From positions 24,152,627 through 24,216,626 of the forward strand of contig NC_058495.1 in the NCBI RefSeq assembly GCF_020382885.2: 64,000 bases of DNA, read 5' to 3'. The DNA comes from Scatophagus argus. Its lineage: Eukaryota > Chordata > Actinopteri > Scatophagidae. The notes beneath the pieces are model-generated. The model was not told where the DNA came from. It did no database searches and saw nothing but the letters and a program-made list of their open reading frames with translations. The position numbers and the translations under genes are program-made. How positions within the stretch are numbered: the first letter of the stretch is position 1; each line of letters begins with the position of its first letter. Shown here in pieces: positions 1 through 28,952 of this stretch.

Positions 1-108
1 TTTAGGTTCTATGAAGACCATGTGATCCAAAATGTCCAGATGTTAGGACAGCGTTATGCACAGTAGACTCTTTAAAACCCTGATGTTCTCTAAATCCTGA
101 TCCGACAG
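1..108 (+). other. End of a klhl10 intron
   Basis: The reading frame is not usable upstream of the acceptor at 107-108. The stretch is therefore read as the 3' end of the intron that separates the missing first BTB exon from the exon at 109. Confidence 0.6.
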
Positions 109-3006
109 CACCCTCTTCACTGGTGCCTGGGCGACCTCGAAGAAGAAAATCCACGCTATCCCTGGAGTGTCGCCCGAGATCATGCAGCTCCTCATCAATT
201 ATGCCTACACCAACTCTGTACCTGTGACAGAGGGTAACGTGGTGGAGATGTTGGAAGCTGCAGACCAATTCATGATCCCGGGAATTGTTCAGATCTGCTG
301 CTTCTTCCTGGAGGACCAGCTGTGTCCGACCAACTGCATCGGTATCTGGAGGCTGGTCGAGTTCTACCACTGCCCTGAGCTGAGGTCCAAAGTCTTCCTC
401 TACATCCTGCACCACTTTGAGGAGATAGCTCGTGTCTCACAGGAGCTCATGGAGCTTTCTGTGCTGCAGCTGATTGCTATCATTGAAGATGATCGCCTCA
501 ATGTGAAACGAGAAGACACAGTGTTTGAGGTTGTCCTCAGCTGGATTAATCACCTGCTTGACCAAAGACAATGCCACATGCCTGTGCTGCTGCCTAAGGT
601 AACTAAACAGGGAGCACAGGGTTGCACTTTTGCAGAAAGGTGGTGGTCTGTTCAAACATTTACGGTTACCTGTGATTATGTTTTTCAACTGATGTACAAA
701 ATATCCACAAAATGAGAGAAAACAAGTAGATGAGGGAGCACGGTTGTTTGTATTTACTTTGGACAAAGCCAGGCTAACAATTTACCCCTGCTTCCACTCT
801 ACAACAGAACTCCGGTTTGCCCTGACAAACAGGGTTTGAAAATGAGGCTGATCACATCCTGACTCCACCTTTGTAGCGACTTACCACACAGACAAATCAG
901 ACTGATATCTATCTGATTAAACTGTTTCTAACTCCTGCCTACTTATGTCTGTCCAGGTGAGGTTGGGCTTGATGACCATTGCTTACCTCCAAAACAGCGT
1001 GATGAACAATGCCTTGATAAGGGACTGCACCCAATGCCACTTCATCCTCAACGATGCATTGACGGCATTTCTAAATTTTAGGACCTATAGACACTCAAGA
1101 CATGTTTGCAATAACCCACTGGCCCGCCCACGCCTTCCTTCTGCCATTTTATTGGTCACCGGAGGCAAAGATGGCATCATTGCTTCGACCAGCCTCGAGG
1201 CGTATGATCCCCGAGCCGACTGCTGGATAACTGTGGCCACTGAGCGGATTTGGCGCTCTCACCACGGTGCTGCTGTCCTCAACAACTCTGTGTACTTAGT
1301 CGGTGGCTGCAGTCATGACCTTTACTTGAATACAGTGGCAAAGTTTGACATCGCCACCTGCACATGGCACCAGGTGGCCCGCATGAACTGCTGGCGCTGC
1401 TACGTCAGTGTCACTGTGCACAATGGGTGCATTTATGCCATGGGGGGCTACAATGGACATGTTTACCATAACACAGTTGAGCGCTACAAGCCTGACACTG
1501 ATCAGTGGACCATGATGGCACCCATGCATGCGAGAAGGTGTGGGGCAAGTTCCACAACTCTAAATGACAAGGTTGGTGAAGCAGAGATGACTGATTTAAC
1601 CATGTAACCACCAAAACTAATGAGTGAAATGGCGTGCTGCTTTTAACTTCATGTTCTCTAGTTTCTTCATGTTGGAGGCAGAAGGTTTGTTCTGTTTCGT
1701 TTTGCTTTTAAAGGCACGCTACACAGGATTGCTGTTCCATTCAAAGGTGCAGTATGCCTGATAGCTGAATGTTGACTCTCATTCCCAGGGCATCAAATAC
1801 CTTTGGCCAGTCCGTACAGCGTGGTGTATGTCCTCATGTTTGTCACATGTATTGAACTTGTTGTATCTGAGCAATAGCAATCTTTGTTTTTGCAGGTAAT
1901 CTCGGAATGAGGCATGTTTCTCTAAGGGTATATAACCTCGAAGGGACTTTTGAATATTTTTAGCAAGCCAGAGCCCTTACATTTTAAAAAGCAAAGTACT
2001 GTATCACATTGCAGACTTTGAGCAACTTAAAACTTAATATGACTGCGCTTGTAGTGGAATCTATATTAAATCTAAGTGTCCCAAATGTTTCTGTAGGTCT
2101 ATATTTGTGGTGGCTTCAACGGGCAGCGCAGCATCTCCACGGCTGAGTCCTATAACCCGAACAGCAACCAGTGGACCATGATCGCCCCTATGAGGTTCTG
2201 CCGAAGTGGCCTGGGGGTCGCTGCCTACAGAGGCCATATCTATGCAGTAAGTGTTTGGTATTAATATGCAGCTCAGATATTTGGCTGTACCATGTTAGTG
2301 GAGACTGTCACTATTTAAGTGCACAATATGTAATTTCTGCCACTCTAATGACTCTCTGCATAACTAAACAAAATATATGACAGAGGTCTCATCATTTTGA
2401 CATTAATGTCAGAAATTGTATCGTTAAAGAGAATTTTCTTCCAGTGGCCACAAGGGAGACTGGTTGATAAATTATGGTAGTATAAAGTAATGTTATGAAC
2501 TTTCCTTGTCATACTGTCATACAGAAACTCTTCAGTATCTCCTGCCAATATCTTCTCTCCCAGCTCTACTCTTTAACTTTGAGCTTGCTCGGGGTGTCAT
2601 CCACACTCCATATGTGTCCCTTTACTCTATTGAAACAATGGACCCGTCCTCTCTCTCCTAGGTTGGTGGCATGAATAATAGGACCTTCCCCCTGGCCAGT
2701 GCTGAGGTCTACAACCCCCTGACCAACATCTGGAGCACCGTAGCATCCATGTACAGCCCCCGCAGCTACTTTGGCATTGAGGTGGTGGACAACCAGTTGT
2801 TTGTGGTTGGCGGATATGATGGTGCTACCACTGTGTCAACTGTGGAGTACTTTGATGCAGAGGCTGGTATGTGGTTCATTACTGTTGACATTAAAATGTC
2901 TCGCAGTGGTCTGAGCTGCTGCGTGCTCCATGGACTCTACAGCATGGCGGGGAGCTTGTTCCAGCGCGGCACCCTGTCACTCTCCAACATGGAGGGAGCT
3001 GCCTGA
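109..3006 (+). CDS. klhl10: Kelch-like protein 10 (CUL3 substrate adaptor), 3' part, four exons
   Basis: Exons read as 109-598, 957-1571, 2097-2246 and 2662-3006 (stop TGA), all with AG/GT borders. Together they encode 532 residues plus one split codon. The protein has the end of the BTB domain (LFTGAW), the BACK domain (NCIGIWRLVEFYHCPELR, then VLLPK) and six kelch blades (for example YAMGGYNGHVYHNTVERY, VYICGGFNGQRSISTAESY and FVVGGYDG). The collinear match, including ARPRLPSAIL before the first blade and FGIEVVDNQLFVVGGYDG in the last, is to vertebrate KLHL10, a CUL3 E3 ligase adaptor needed for sperm maturation. Human KLHL10 is about 608 aa, so roughly 75 N-terminal residues in an upstream exon are missing from the window. 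Base 109 completes a codon split by the upstream intron. The paralogue (a or b) cannot be told. The gene is partial only because the window cuts it; no internal break was seen. Confidence 0.88.
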
Positions 3007-18602: not shown

Positions 18603-20839
<2,237 letters not shown>

Positions 20840-21075
20840 GTTTCAGATGTTTCGGATGTTTCAGGCTGAAACTTTCAAACCGCTCGTCGAGCCTCTCCGC
20901 CTGTGTCTGGGTCGGTGTGTGAGTGTGTGTGCATTTATAGAGCAGCGGTGTGCGTAACGGTGTGTGTGTGTTCTCCATGGTGTCATCCCGGCTGCTGTCA
21001 GCTTGGTACACGGTGGCAGCGGCTACGAGGCAACACGCAACACCGGAAAACAACACTTCCGCTCACACAACCTTC
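20840..21075 (-). promoter_or_regulatory. ARF gene 5' leader and promoter region
   Basis: Immediately upstream of the ARF ATG (at 20839 on the minus strand, with A at -3), this GC-richer stretch carries a minus-strand [11 protein letters not shown]-type site (complement at 21055-21062). No TATA box was seen. It is inferred as the promoter by position. Confidence 0.45.
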
Positions 21076-21461
21076 AAAATAAAGGCACAGCTTTTGCTCG
21101 ATTGACATAAAGGTATAGTCACATTATTTTTACTGGCGTGCAGCTGTTTGCGCTGCCTTGGTCTGTCTACTGAAGGCCAAACAAGAGGGACGCATTCACG
21201 TGTGCAGAGGTCAGAGTTCAGGTGTGCTCAGTCAACCCACAGAAACACTGCTGGACTGTGTTTTCAGATGTGGAAGATAATATTCTGTCCTGTTTCTTCA
21301 CAAAGTACGATCCAATCAAACCATCAGTGAACTGACTGACATTTTATTCAAACCTTGATATATCCTACTCCTCTGTGCCACCGCTCTCCACTGTTCTGTT
21401 TTAAAAACACAAGAGTGAGTCACACTGTTGCACTGGATGACATGTTCCTTCATCGCCATTT

Positions 21462-21462
<1 letters not shown>

Positions 21463-21499
<37 letters not shown>
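21463..21499. repeat. (AC)n microsatellite
   Basis: About 18 AC units in intergenic DNA. Confidence 0.9.
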
Positions 21500-21501
<2 letters not shown>

Positions 21502-22411
21502 TAGATCAATCCCGCTGAGTCCTCCTGTTGGAAATGCCAGAATGTACCAAATGTGTATTACTGTGCAGCAGAAAATAGTCCCCAATAAAAGCCGTGTTCT
21601 CCTCATTTAAAATATTGCCTGTTTTAGGAAATCAAGTTTCTTTTAAAAGAAATGAAACTAGAGTGACTAGTGGGTGGACTTCTATTGTAGAATTACAGGT
21701 TATAATACTCTGGTTCCTGTGTCTTCATACAAAGGACAGCGTAGCAGGAAGTGATGTTCTGTCTCTTCCTCTTGCTGCTGTCAGCAGAACTGACACAGTC
21801 TGTTTACTGTGCGTTGCCAGGTTGTCAACGCTGAGTGAATAATCTGCGTCTGTGTCTCATCTGTTCACTGCAGTTGTTGAAAGTTTACTGACGTGTTGGT
21901 TTGTAAGTTGCATCACACACACAAACCTTACCTGAAAGGTAATCTGAACATCTGATAAAGGGTTTATAAAACACTAAACATAACATTTCTGCAGGACATG
22001 AAGAAGGAATGAAGATAAGAGTTCAGAGATGTGTTTGTCAGCTGCTGTAGTGAAGTTAATTAGTTTGTGTCCTGTGTTGTTCTGTCTGTATTCTCGGTTG
22101 AGTTGTGTGTTTTTAATGTGTGTACTGATCAATAACTTCTGTCCTGTTGTTGTTACGTTTTACGTGTTTTAACTGGTGTATTGTAAATTAACTTATAAAT
22201 GCTGTGGTGTGAGGCATCGACATGCTCGTCCCTGTGCAATAAATAAATAAATTATTCATCTTTTTTTTTTTTGTTCGTTCTGATGAAAACTGGACAAACT
22301 TCCTCTGCTGACAAAAGCCACAAGATGCAATTTTGACCTCCAGAAGAAACGTGCTGACGTGTGGAGTTAAGTTTATCATCATTTCCACAGTCAGGAATGA
22401 AGCTTAAAGCT

Positions 22412-22413
<2 letters not shown>

Positions 22414-22449
<36 letters not shown>
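22414..22449. repeat. (GT)n microsatellite
   Basis: About 18 GT units in intergenic DNA. Confidence 0.9.
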
Positions 22450-22450
<1 letters not shown>

Positions 22451-24065
22451 CAGGAAACACACTCGTGAAGGATTTCCACTTCTGTATGAACAGATTTCAC
22501 AACCCACTGAAAGTTATTGCTCCTGTGTGCATTTCATTTATTAATATCACAGCTGCTCTGTCGTCTTATCAATCATTTATTATAGACGCAGATACAGTTA
22601 CAGATGCTTCATTAAAGGACCACACTGTGCACAGATAGATTATTAAACACATAATAAAAGAAACTTTAAAGAGACTGATGACAGATAAAACTTAAAGTCT
22701 GGAGGATTTTCACTTGTGTGAGGAGGACTTGAGAATCAGCAGCTGTTTAACGTGATGAAATTACAAAACACGCCACTGGTGGAAATATAAACCACTAAAG
22801 TGCGATTACAAAGGTGTCTTTCATCTTGAGGGACTGTCTGTCCAAGAAAAACAAAACAGCAGTGATTTATGCAAAATGCCTGAAGCATTTGTTTGTGTTT
22901 AAAGCGACCAAACCCCGCGGCTGCTGGAGCGTTTGTGGCGCACGCCGGCCGGGATCAGCACAGGAAACAGCGCGCTGCCGTTACGGTCATTATTAGTTCT
23001 GAAATGTTGTTGACTTGTTGTCTGGCAGGGCAGCACTGCGTCGTGTTTACATCCGCTAACAGCTGCTGTTTCATCAGATGATCACACACTTTGTGCTGCC
23101 CTTTGAAAAGGCTGATCCACCTTTGATATGCTGCAGCTTTCAGGAACCGAAGACGCGTTCACGTTTCTCTTCCGCTTTGCGCTGCTTTGCGATTGTTTGT
23201 GGCTTCTGTGCGTGTCTATGAAAGGAGAAGTTCATATAGAAAGGACAGGAACCGCTGCAGACACCACAACAAAGTCTCAACGTTTTTTAGAATTTGATTC
23301 CCCCCTTTTTTATTATTATTATTAATAATTGTTCCAGTATATTTCCCGTTAATGTTATTTTCCTACATGACATGCGTAAAAGCAGTTTAAAATCCTTTCC
23401 AAACACCGAATCCCTCATTTGTACGTTTCTCAGATGACAGTCAATCAGTATTGATGCACAGGCTTGCACCGTGTTTGTGGTTTGGGGAAATCACAGCAGA
23501 GTGAGACGTCACGTCCTCCTGGCTCAGCAGGCCTCCTCCGCTCAGGTGATGACAACACCGTCAGTGCTGCGTGTACAAAGTTCGGCTACTGCTTTAAAAC
23601 TTCACTTCCTTTATTTACAGACTACTGTAAAAAAAAGTAAGTTTAAGTAACTGCATAAATTGTTTCATTTCGTTTGATTTCATTCATGTTTGGTGTTTAT
23701 GGCAAACTGTGTTTAAACCTTATAACGTGTCATATTTTAACTGTTGTTTAAAATGTTTTGTCCACTTTGAAATGTGTGTCTTTAAGATGCTATAAATAAG
23801 ATTAAGACTATTATTATTATTTTGCTGTTTGTTATTATAATAAAACATTTACAAAAAAACCTTAAATCTGTTCATGCAGTTGTGGTTTTATTTATCACAG
23901 CGCTGAAAAGCTACGTTCAAACGAGGCTACAGATCAAAAGCAATTGGTCAAACAGCAGCACGTGATCACTTTTCACGGTCAGAAGAAAGCTGAGCGTGTC
24001 AGAACGGCTCGCTGTTGTCAATTTTAAATGCACGAATTCAATTCATTTCTGTCCCATCTGAGCTT

Positions 24066-24255
24066 AGAAAATTTCCCTCTGCTTTCACACATGCTGTGAT
24101 GCAACCTCTCTTAAAGAAACCCAAGCTTGATCCAATTTCAAAGCTGCCATTTTTATCTAAGGTGCCAGAGAAAGTGGTGTTTACTCATCTTTCAGAGTTC
24201 ATGTGTCATAATGACCTCTTTGAGAGATTTCAGTGTGGTTTTACAAAAACAATTA
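24066..24255 (+). mobile_element. Reverse transcriptase fragment of a non-LTR retrotransposon
   Basis: The plus-strand frame reads FPSAFTHAVMQPLLKKPKLD, then PISKLPFLSKVPEKVV, then a segment ending FERFQCGF. This is the familiar reverse-transcriptase region of teleost Rex1/L2-like LINEs. The usual few residues between LDP and ISKLPF are deleted and both sides are lost. It is a dead fragment. Confidence 0.75.
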
Positions 24256-24550
24256 CAAAAAATTATAGAGGTAAAACAAATTAACAATTTACAAAGTACA
24301 GCAAACACAATACAATATACAGCTATATACAAGTCCTCATAAGGGAGGAAAAGAGGACCATTGAATTATATAGTCTAATATATCATATTATATTATATTA
24401 TATTATAGATTTTGTTTATTGCATCCTATACAGTGTACAGTTTGTTGATTTTGTCTTTAATGATTCACTTTGGAAACCTGGCTTTTGAAAGGTGCTAAGT
24501 TATTATTATTATTATTGTTGTTGTTATTACATTCGACAGTCCCTCTGATA

Positions 24551-24842
24551 TGCAGGAGAGGAAGAAGTACTCAGATCACTGAGTAAAACTGGATTATAAT
24601 AAGTGCTGAACAAAGTCACTAACGCTGCGAGAGACGAATGTGGATCAAATGCCAGAGAGGGCCGGCTGGTGTGTGTTTTCTGTTTCTCTGAAGTGAAACT
24701 CACGAGCGGCTGCTGACGTCTGAACCAGGAAGTCAAAGTCCAGGAGCTGCCGTCTGCTCAGAGGGACGACGGCGGGACGGACGCTCCCACAGACGCTTCA
24801 CAGTGCTGGACTCGGGTCGGTCGGAGGAGGACGAGGATCAAG
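24551..24842 (+). promoter_or_regulatory. Upstream region of the pentraxin-like gene
   Basis: GC content and CpG density rise towards 24842 (GACGACGGCGGGACGGACG at about 24764-24782). It leads directly into the signal-peptide ATG at 24843, which has a purine (A) at -3. The start of transcription is not defined by a TATA box that I can see. It is inferred as promoter plus 5'UTR. Confidence 0.4.
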
Positions 24843-24940
24843 ATGAAGAGCAAGCCGCTTTACGTTCCCGCGGTGATGGCTGTGATGTCAGCACTGGTGA
24901 ATGTGGTGTCAGCTTCAGCATGGACGACAACAGGTGTGGG

Positions 24941-24983
<43 letters not shown>

Positions 24984-25804
24984 AGGAAAACTTTTGAGAT
25001 ATTTAAAAGTAGCTCCAGACTTCATCCTGACAGTCACCAGTTGTTGATCTTGTTGGTTAAATAACTTTATTTTGGCGTGTGTTCACAGAGGAACAAAGAC
25101 TGAAACATGTATGTTTGAGTGCTGCTGTCATGTCCAATAAGGCAAAGCACAAAGGAAACGTAGGAGCTGCTCAAAGATACAAACACGATTCAAAACTAAT
25201 AGCTGTGGATATTAGCAAAGAGTACCGGAATATTACACTCAAATCAAAGTAATAGTGTGAGGAAGAGGACGGGGACGGGGACAACATCACCGAGTCCAAA
25301 CCAACAAAGTCCACATCTGTAGGAGGCAGCTTACAGCAAACATGCAACCATCTTGTTCTAAAGTGTAGGCTCACTTTATTAACCTGGAAAAGAGACAAAG
25401 ACAGTCTGTCTCCGTCCCCGCAGCTCCACCCTCCTGCAGCTGGAGGGACACCAGCTGCTGCAGCAGATGTTGATTAAACTCCTTTTCTCCTGTTCCAGTC
25501 TCACATGTCAGTCAGGAGGGCTGAGGCTCCATGCGGCTTTGGACTTTTCCTCTCCTGAAAGGCAGTGAAGTACAACGTGTGGGCTTTTTAAAGTAAACCT
25601 TCCTGATTTTAAAATACTGCAGTAGAAGTACCCAGAAAAAAGGACAGAAAACACACAAAAATTCAGATTCATGTCCACACGTGTTAGAGTTTGAGCCGTT
25701 GAAGTTGATTTCTCATGAACTAAAAAGCCAACGGCTGTGGACAGAGTGTGGAAGCAAAAATCAAGTCTGACTTCCTGAAATATTCACACACACACGCACG
25801 CACG

Positions 25805-25835
<31 letters not shown>

Positions 25836-25858
25836 ACACACGCACACACACACACACG

Positions 25859-25890
<32 letters not shown>

Positions 25891-27730
25891 GTGAGAGAGA
25901 GAAGAGTAACTACGCACATTCAGTGTCTGTTTAACATTTAAAACAAAGTTTGTTTTTCACGGTGATGTGGTTTAATTTAGTGCGATTTAACAACATTAAG
26001 ATCACCTCGGGACAGATTATCCAAACCTTACAGTTAGTTTAACAAAGATGAGATGTTCCCTCACTCATGTCATGAAAACACACACCGCAGTTTATTTTGG
26101 CTCAATTCCACGTGAGCTGAACACGTGTCAATCCGCCGATGAAAACAGTCCCTGCAAACATGCGTCAGGAGATCCTCAGACAGAGCAGGGACGTCAGAAA
26201 GCGTAGACGAACCCGTTGCTGTTTTTGGTCTTCGTATCTCATTTTGTTCTGAATCACAAAAGCACAGCACATCACCAGACTTCTCCTTCATCTCCTCGCT
26301 GACGTGATGAGCCTTAGTGTTTAATCCCTTCGTCTTTCTCTCTCCAGCACCTTCTTTCAGGGCCAATTTAAATGGCAAGATGTTCACTTTGTCTTCCAAC
26401 GGAGGAGGAATATCTTTCTATCCAGCCTATTTTAACCCGTCATCAACTACTATCCCCCGCTACACCACCCGATCCATCCCAACCGCCAGACTGAGCACCA
26501 CCCAATTCACCACCACCGCCAGATTGAGCACCACCCGATTCACCCCCACCACCACCAGCACCACCAAATCCACCCACACCACCACCAGCACCACCCGATT
26601 CACCCCCACCACCACCAGCACCACCCGATTCACCCCCACCACCACCAGCACCACCAAATCCGCCCACACCACCACCCGATTCACCCCCACCACCACCAGC
26701 ACCACCAAATCCACCCCCACCTACCCTCCCTGGACCTCAGCACCTCCCGTCAGAGGTCAGTACCTTTACAGACCACATAACCAAACAGAAACGCAGTGTC
26801 AGCACATGATATCCAAACTCTTTATTTGATGTACAGATTTGCTGTCACCTTTTCTTAAGTTTTATTTCAATGCCACATCTATTACATGTTGCATTACAAT
26901 AAAACACTGAAACATGTAGCTGAAACATGCTCGCATTGGACGTGTTTGCATACATGTCACTAAATCATGACTGTGATGCTTTTTATGGTTTGTTCGGACA
27001 AACAAAGTCCTTGTTTAAGTCCTTGTTAAAGCCAGTGACAACTGGAAGCTTTGTCTCTCGTAGATGGTTATTAATTATTGACTGTTGTTATCGGTGGATA
27101 GCTACACCGACTACATGATATATTGTGTATTTGTTTGTTTATTTGCTTCTTTCTTTCTTTTAAATTCATGTTCTAAAACCACCAAACGACCGCTCTGTGT
27201 TCATCGTTGACTTGACTTGGTCAAACTTTGTGCTCCTCCCTGTGAACGCTGACCCCTGCAGGTGTATCCGTCTGTCTGCGATTCCTCACCGACTACCAGC
27301 AGTCCAGTAGCCCCACAATCTTCACGCTCAGTCCATCCAGCCGGAACCCACTGAAGATGGCAGTCAGTGTCAGTGGTGTTTACGTGCTGAGCTTTGACAG
27401 ATACGAGTACAACAGGCTGTACTTGCAACCCAACAAATTATTCTGGACACACATTGAACCAGAGATCTGGACCACAGTCTGCCTGACCGTGGACTCCATG
27501 AAGAATGTAGCGCAGGTGTTTAGCGGCCCCAGAATTAGCATCAGGAAGATGCTGCCCTCTGAGGTGAGGACAGCAAATCTTACGATGTGGGCAGCAATGT
27601 TGGCTCTCACAGCAAAAAGATGAAGCCTGCAATGTTTTCATATTCCATGTCTGCATTAATACTTTGCCCACAGGACCGCAATTTAACAACCTGCTGGACT
27701 TGGAATCTCATTTTATTATTATCTATCTGA

Positions 27731-27766
<36 letters not shown>

Positions 27767-27895
27767 CAGTATGCCTGGTCAGGTGAGCCTGTAATTTATT
27801 TTCCAGGTTTTGATGGTCAGGTGACAGACGTCCAAGTGTGGGATTATCCTATCTCCTACAGGGAAATCTACAACTACATGACCACCAGCGTCTAC

Positions 27896-27932
<37 letters not shown>

Positions 27933-28952
27933 CAGTTCTCTCTGTAGTGTATAAAGTAACAGTAAAATGTTGAATTGGCACATTTCATCGACACTCTGTT
28001 TCATATAAAGCACTGACGTATATAAAGATGGCTGGTGCATCTCCACTTGAAGCAAAATGAAGTATCCCAGATACAAGTGCTGCCATCTTGTTCTGGTGAC
28101 CTCGTTTGGAGCCAGAGTATATTCAGTAGTGCAGGGGAGGTGCAGGTGCGGTATCAAGTTCCCGCCCATAAGCCTGTCTGACCCAATCAGGAGCATGATG
28201 TTCCACCTGCTTTTTAAAGGATCAAATCAATCATTAAAACCAAACTGATCAGAAAAATGAACACTTGAACAAACATCAATGTGATAAGAACTACCTAAAA
28301 TGACAGAAACCATCTTTGGGGAAAAATATATTTGACGCCTATGGCCCATCTGCTAAGGCGGAGGGGGAGGAGCTTATGAGCTGTACTGCAGCCGACCACA
28401 AAATCCAGATGTTTGGGCTTCACTTTTTCAAAGCTCTCATGTCGTCCATCTCTATGCAGTCGATGGCGTAAAGTGGCAGAGCTTTAGCAAGCTAGTTAAT
28501 GCATTCTGTGGCTACATTTTTAAGCTAAAAATATTAGCATATTCATAGGCTCCAAAATTTTTAAGTAGAGAGAAAGAGTTTTAAGAATTTTTAACTTTTA
28601 CAAAATAAATAAATAAATAAACATTTTTTTGTGCTCATGATTAACTCTATAAACCACATTACTTCATCTTTAAATGTCCTTTCCTGTATAAATCATTACT
28701 GTTTTTATCAGCATAGTGTTAATTAACTTTTTGTTTTTTGTTTTTAGGCCTGACGTTGGCTCCGTCCTCACCTGGTCCTCCATCAGCTACTCTCCCAGAG
28801 GAAGGACACTATTGGAAGACATCTATGAGAGGCAGGCAAAACGCCTCGTCGGCAGAAGGGGGAGATGGCATCGTCCAAAGGGAGGGAAGAAGAAGACCAG
28901 GCTGTTTTCCAGCATGGGGGAAAGGAAGGATAGAAAGGAACAACAGCTGTAA
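24843..28952 (+). CDS. Secreted mucin-like stalk plus divergent pentraxin-domain protein, five exons
   Basis: Exons 24843-24933, 26348-26755, 27262-27563, 27770-27897, 28748-28952. Phases agree and give 1134 bases, 377 aa. Residues 1-26 form a signal peptide (hydrophobic [17 protein letters not shown]). Residues about 45-165 are a Thr/Ser/Pro stalk with 10-residue repeats [10 protein letters not shown], likely heavily O-glycosylated. Residues 167-335 resemble C-reactive protein. [11 protein letters not shown] carries the first disulphide Cys (171), [10 protein letters not shown] the second (240), and [17 protein letters not shown] matches the FEGSQSLVGDIGNVNMWD region. [14 protein letters not shown] matches the C-terminal NVLNW strand. 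The H-x-C-x-S-W signature and the LGQEQD calcium ligands are not recognisable. Residues about 336-377 are very basic ([14 protein letters not shown]). I recognise the fold, not the gene. An extracellular lectin or pattern-binding role is inference. Confidence 0.8.
24946..24977. repeat. (AC)n just inside intron 1 of the pentraxin-like gene
   Basis: The run begins 12 bases after the exon 1 donor, following a GCGCGC stretch. Confidence 0.85.
25787..25890. repeat. Compound (AC)n/(ACGC)n microsatellite
   Basis: About 100 bases of AC repeats with interspersed GCAC units in intron 1 of the pentraxin-like gene. Minus-strand frames through it are repeat translations. Confidence 0.9.
26500..26722 (+). 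repeat. Coding minisatellite (30-base unit) in the pentraxin-like stalk
   Basis: A 30-base unit around CACCCGATTCACCCCCACCA encodes [10 protein letters not shown] or the variants [10 protein letters not shown] and [10 protein letters not shown]. At least six units are visible. One has lost nine bases in frame, so the reading frame survives. The minus strand is very G-rich. Confidence 0.85.
27733..27764. repeat. (TG)n directly upstream of pentraxin-like exon 4
   Basis: The run ends at the acceptor TTCAG (27765-27769). Confidence 0.9.
27898..27929. repeat. (GT)n containing the exon 4 donor
   Basis: The donor GT of exon 4 (27898-27899) is the first unit of this run. Confidence 0.9.
28010..28470. 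mobile_element. Non-autonomous element (MITE-like) in pentraxin-like intron 4
   Basis: The left end has ACGTATATAAAGATGG and the right end CCATCTCTATGCAGTCGATGG, imperfect inverted repeats of each other. The interior (AAGTGCTGCCATCTTGTTCTGG, CCCGCCCATAAGCCTGTCTG, GACCCAATCAGGAGCATGATG across 28074-28202) is, from memory, a common teleost repeat. No coding capacity was seen. Confidence 0.6.

Follow-up and report, generated by a model that had tools for sequence, protein, structure and literature searches.

A five-exon gene is predicted on the + strand of a 64,000-nucleotide stretch of the Scatophagus argus genome (assembly GCF_020382885.2, contig NC_058495.1, positions 24,152,627 to 24,216,626 of the forward strand), hereafter the window, from whose first letter positions are counted. 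The locus appears to be a genuine if unusual gene, whose predicted product is a secreted relative of C-reactive protein (CRP) with a mucin-like threonine repeat, a strongly basic tail and no remaining calcium-binding site. The exons (Table 1) splice to 1134 nt, or 377 codons plus TAA, with introns that are all GT-AG and phases of 1, 1, 0 and 2, bearing out the consistent phasing claimed when the letters alone were first read (the sequence-only reading). The whole predicted chain, including the signal peptide, is 42.4 kDa.

Exon 1 encodes the hydrophobic stretch of a signal peptide, and by simple criteria the product is predicted to be secreted, as had been proposed. Scanning positions 20001-26340 for exons that combine an ATG with a hydrophobic stretch and a phase-1 donor returned two matches, both of them exon 1 with nested ATGs. 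On an approximate donor matrix, the four donors have scores between 3.71 and 5.78 bits, which puts them at the 98.6th to 99.7th percentile of GT dinucleotides in the window, and within the scanned portion of exon 2 (26361 on) no donor but the one used scores positive. Pyrimidine content is high in two of the acceptors (94% and 88%) but not in the other two (53% each), one of which, at exon 4, is a TG repeat. TG/GT repeats at 27731-27769 and 27898-27930 border exon 4 directly at either splice site (acceptor ...TGTGTTCAG, donor CAG/GTGTGTG), and splicing of this exon might be variable. Exon 2 (408 bp) is symmetric, phase 1-1, so its skipping would preserve the frame and yield a protein without the threonine array. 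No stop interrupts the 281 non-repeat codons, for which random sequence gives a probability of about 1.4e-6. With a codon measure derived from 451 codons of a BTB/kelch gene in the window, the model frame outscores the other two sense frames in every one of the five exons; one antisense frame of exon 2 scores above it (0.42 vs 0.36).

Table 1. Exons of the pentraxin-like gene and neighbouring genes in the window.
Feature	Position	Strand	Remarks
Exon 1	24843..24933	+	Signal peptide, then WTTT; phase-1 end; peak 19-residue hydropathy at residues 6-24
Exon 2, opening part	26348..26442	+	Residues 31-62; candidate pentraxin strands 1-2
Exon 2, Thr-rich array	26443..26730	+	Residues 63-158; assigned by composition and tandem repeat
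Exon 2, end (WTSAPPVR)	26731..26755	+	Recognisable pentraxin homology begins; codon 167 split by phase-1 junction
Exon 3	27262..27563	+	From pentraxin strand 3 on; both cysteines, residues 171 and 240
Exon 4	27770..27897	+	Contains VIYF; about 14 calcium-loop residues absent directly after VIYF
Exon 5, opening part	28748..28823	+	Last pentraxin strands
Exon 5, basic tail and TAA stop	28824..28952	+	Residues 336-377; net charge +12; stop at 28950-28952
BTB-BACK-kelch gene	101-3003	+	Pfam
ARF-family GTPase exons	19401-19940	-	Pfam Arf
SLMAP exon	51.3 kb	+	94-residue open reading frame, E 5.4e-42 to 6ar0

The threonine-rich segment is coded by tandem repeats at 26463-26721, whose periods are 30 and 51 bp. 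Threonine supplies 47 of its 96 or so residues (63-158), alongside 12 Ser, 9 Pro, 8 Arg and 3 Lys, and acidic residues are absent; with 61% Ser+Thr and 9% Pro in a tandem repeat, the segment is mucin-like, in line with the sequence-only reading. ACC accounts for 46 of the 49 Thr codons across the whole of exon 2, and this near uniformity points to recent minisatellite growth of the array and predicts length polymorphism between individuals. The second forward frame of the array is open too, so its openness is weak evidence of coding, while the third forward frame and the three antisense frames hold stops. The Lys/Arg-rich C-terminus was likewise seen, with 16 Lys or Arg and 4 Asp or Glu in 42 residues. 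A stretch of this base composition stays open by chance in about 15% of cases; the tail alone is thus no proof of coding, and loss of an earlier stop may account for it. The positive charge of the protein is divided between the array (+11) and the tail (+12), the head having a net charge of 0. A minimal furin-like motif, RRGR, is found at residues 346-349 of the tail (28854-28865), and cleavage there would release a cationic peptide.

Between the array and the tail lies the recognisable part of the divergent pentraxin domain whose presence had been suggested, and its comparison with Pfam hidden Markov models supports the suggestion. The unchanged protein matches Pentaxin (PF00354) at E 4.9e-5 and 23.6 bits over positions 22-190 of the 194 in the profile, and a profile of seven reference pentraxins gives 31.0 bits for the whole protein and 34.5 bits for the head. 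Against none of the seven references did any of 400 shuffled sequences attain the real score, and pentraxin homology above chance is well supported by these comparisons. The best sequence matches in the PDB are short pentraxins, which are weak when taken alone (E 0.074-0.21). Cys171 and Cys240, the only two cysteines of the protein, align with the Cys36-Cys97 disulphide pair of CRP and may form the same bond. NCBIfam gave no family match up to E 1 and Rfam none at gathering scores. Further pentraxin-like exons were sought in the window with tblastn, where the best matches outside the gene had E values of at least 0.98; of 53 pattern matches for relatives in viral contigs, 0 were confirmed.

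The head nevertheless departs from known pentraxins. Columns shared by at least six of the seven reference pentraxins number 26, and in residues 159-336 the head keeps 9 of them, has substitutions in 10 and gaps in 7, one of these gaps (CRP Phe11) preceding the residues compared. Of the CRP calcium ligands (60, 61, 138-140, 147 and 150; letters checked), only Asn61 aligns with an identical residue, five fall in gaps and one is replaced by Pro, the gap in exon 4 having taken out the calcium loop. The pentraxin signature, given as H/SxCxS/TWxS in the cited portion of a survey (PMC5446266), is also broken, including a change of W to V. With six of seven ligands unmatched and the signature disrupted, the ligand-binding head envisaged by the sequence-only reading is not upheld. 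A classical short pentraxin, as outlined in the cited part of PMC6503050, is a cyclic oligomer of 20-30 kDa subunits which binds phosphocholine in a calcium-dependent manner, and the chain predicted here exceeds this subunit range.

The recognisable head starts at strand 3 and is without the first two pentraxin strands. In the structure of the adhesion receptor ADGRG4, the cited passages describe strand 1 as pairing with strand 12 (PMC10687090), and by this comparison strands 1 and 2 would have to come from upstream for the sandwich to be complete. Residues 31-62, which follow the signal-peptide intron at the start of exon 2, are the only non-repeat stretch upstream of the head; as these candidate strands precede the array, the array may be a loop within the domain. 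The segment contains NLNGKMF, resembling NLSGKVL of zebrafish CRP and DLSGKVF of SAP. With 5000 shuffles for each comparison, its similarity was equalled or beaten in 0.3% for zebrafish CRP, 2.3% for SAP and 52% for human CRP, and the sum over the three proteins was matched by 0.6% of 3000 shuffles. An N-terminal profile built from three proteins was matched as well by 41 of 2000 shuffles and by 121 of 3256 stop-free pieces of the window; the equivalent from seven proteins was matched by 166 and 79, respectively. Codon 167, split at the exon 2/3 junction, aligns with Asn32 of SAP, which bears the SAP glycan (PMC3609861, in the part cited), so the site should be exposed and tolerate a sugar. 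In laminin-G domains, according to the same account of ADGRG4 (PMC10687090), ligands are bound at a rim to which the 2-3 and 10-11 loops contribute most and which lies on the side opposite both termini of the domain.

Taking the shuffle support for strand 1-2 likeness together with the weaker or negative outcomes of other tests, placement of the array inside the domain is proposed tentatively, at somewhat less than even odds. The jellyroll would then be interrupted at the SAP glycan site by a mucin-like minisatellite arm from the strand 2-3 loop, and calcium binding would have been lost; the result would be a glycan arm of variable length inside a pentraxin, not beside it. For the broader reading, in which the gene encodes a secreted, degenerate short pentraxin of CRP/SAP type with an array expanded in the strand 2-3 loop, a deleted calcium site and a cationic C-terminus, the probability is put at roughly 45%. 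Its starting point would have been a secreted short pentraxin of this type, whose strand 2-3 loop grew, as an ACC-rich minisatellite expanded in frame, into a Thr/Arg-rich arm of about 96 residues, probably O-glycosylated. With the calcium/phosphocholine site deleted and the C-terminus extended, its function would most likely be calcium-independent, as a cationic extracellular adhesive in whichever tissue it may be expressed. The jellyroll would supply the fold and possibly oligomerisation, and the Arg-dotted glycan arm and basic tail could bind polyanions such as sulphated or sialylated glycans, matrix, microbial surfaces or DNA.

Several observations weigh against this reading. The PF00354 score lies below the curated cut-off of 25 bits, and exon 5 is without codon-usage signal, scoring about zero (-0.05). 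Structure prediction gave no confident jellyroll: the model, made for exon 3 alone, has six strands and one three-residue helix at a mean predicted local distance difference test score (pLDDT) of 41.8 and is unusable. Joining the pre-array segment to the head brings no gain in Pfam over a scramble, as the 23.6 bits of the unchanged protein become 24.5 with the array written as X, 25.2 with the array removed and 25.4 with the array removed and the segment scrambled by hand. Placed on the body of human CRP, the segment gives 286.1 bits vs 284.3-287.1 for nine shuffles, a chimera that ranks second of ten for Pentaxin and first of ten for Laminin_G_3, by small margins. The seven-protein profile of the full domain does not report the segment alone and gives 34.0 bits for head and segment vs 34.5 for the head. 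Polyanion binding is proposed from charge.

These same Pfam, chimera and full-domain tests favour the arrangement first proposed, an N-terminal mucin-like rod followed by a self-standing pentraxin head, in which the pre-array segment would be a mere linker. The Pfam and profile matches begin only past the array, and the symmetric phases of exon 2 are like those of shuffled modules. Such a head would, however, be without strands 1 and 2, the first of which has a pairing partner in ADGRG4, and the would-be linker resembles strand 1 of zebrafish CRP and SAP. The tests disagree, and a head on a rod, as the sequence-only reading had it, is considered rather unlikely; it and gene decay are the two main alternatives. 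Still less probable is a decaying CRP/SAP duplicate of no present function, in which relaxed constraint allowed the minisatellite to expand, the calcium loop to disappear and the stop codon to be lost. Decay would be consistent with the missing calcium loop and signature residues, the low count of conserved columns, the nearly uniform ACC array and a tail whose open frame could be fortuitous. The splice sites are nevertheless intact, the cysteine pair is retained, the model frame is the best sense frame throughout exons 1-4, and the non-repeat codons hold no stop, although a young pseudogene could also show none. Exons drawn from different genes, or an untranslated satellite beside a plain pentraxin gene, would accord with the openness of the array in a second frame but are very improbable, since the array exon has a pyrimidine-rich acceptor and only one donor with a positive score, each fitting the adjoining exons in phase 1, and its first residues are pentraxin-like in the shuffle comparison.

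The preferred reading, a degenerate short pentraxin with an arm inside its fold, can be set beside several known proteins. With short pentraxins such as zebrafish CRP (PDB 4PBO) the gene shares the signal peptide, pentraxin domain and cysteine pair; unlike them, it is without the calcium loop and signature, and neither the Thr array nor the basic tail is present in the CRP/SAP letters compared. Its five coding exons also contrast with the two or three reported for most vertebrate CRP/SAP genes in the cited part of the survey, salmon CRP/SAP-1c having one (PMC5446266). ADGRG4 (GPR112) is comparable in composition, as its N-terminus is described in the cited passages as a pentraxin-like domain, without a calcium site and dimerising independently of calcium, followed by a long Ser/Thr mucin-like stalk (PMC10687090). 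The statement that no gene of this form had been described is weakened by this likeness, though ADGRG4 is a membrane receptor with the domain before the stalk, whereas the product here is predicted to be secreted and has the reverse order. No 19-residue stretch starting past residue 40 averages above 0.84 in hydropathy, indicating no transmembrane G protein-coupled receptor part as in ADGRG4. Non-mammalian carbonic anhydrase VI (CA6) is likewise a fish protein with a pentraxin-domain fusion, differing in having an enzyme domain and a C-terminal pentraxin domain from a single exon, with no mucin-like part described in the cited portion of the report (PMC5723433). Long pentraxins (NPTX1, NPTX2, PTX3) also combine a pentraxin domain with an N-terminal extension. 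The name 'pentraxin fusion' presumably comes from the Xenopus pentraxin-fucolectin fusion, and fish entries that carry it may be unrelated to the present layout. Proteins annotated 'pentraxin fusion protein-like' that are listed for ricefield eel and for Hong Kong catfish (PMC11106920, PMC11010891) are alike in name only, the comparison being made by annotation.

Among the titles and abstracts listed in a search of the open-licence literature, no gene of this form appeared beyond ADGRG4 and the CA6-pentraxin fusion, which does not establish that none has been described. Pentraxin fusions are already known, and what would be new, judged from sequence, is a predicted-secreted, CRP-like protein with the array before or inside its domain. 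If real and expressed, the gene would illustrate the conversion of an innate-immunity fold, through repeat expansion in one loop, into a glycan-bearing cationic adhesive that does not need calcium; if decaying, it would be an example of CRP/SAP turnover.

The SLMAP exon marks the window as vertebrate DNA, and the compact gene spacing and general look of the letters fit a ray-finned fish. A Pfam scan of ten open reading frames in the window gave families for four. The gene had been placed in a block that in human holds only APPL1, ASB14, DNAH12, PDE12, ARF4, DENND6A and SLMAP; SLMAP and an ARF-family gene are indeed found in the window, which confirms the proposed synteny in part only, while the BTB-BACK-kelch gene falls outside that list. 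The switch region of ARF proteins is typically GGQDKIRPLW, and that of the ARF-family gene here is divergent. Just upstream of the pentraxin-like gene, the open reading frame at 23994-24284 (+), which had no Pfam match up to E 0.01, appears by eye to be a reverse-transcriptase fragment of a non-long-terminal-repeat (non-LTR) retrotransposon.
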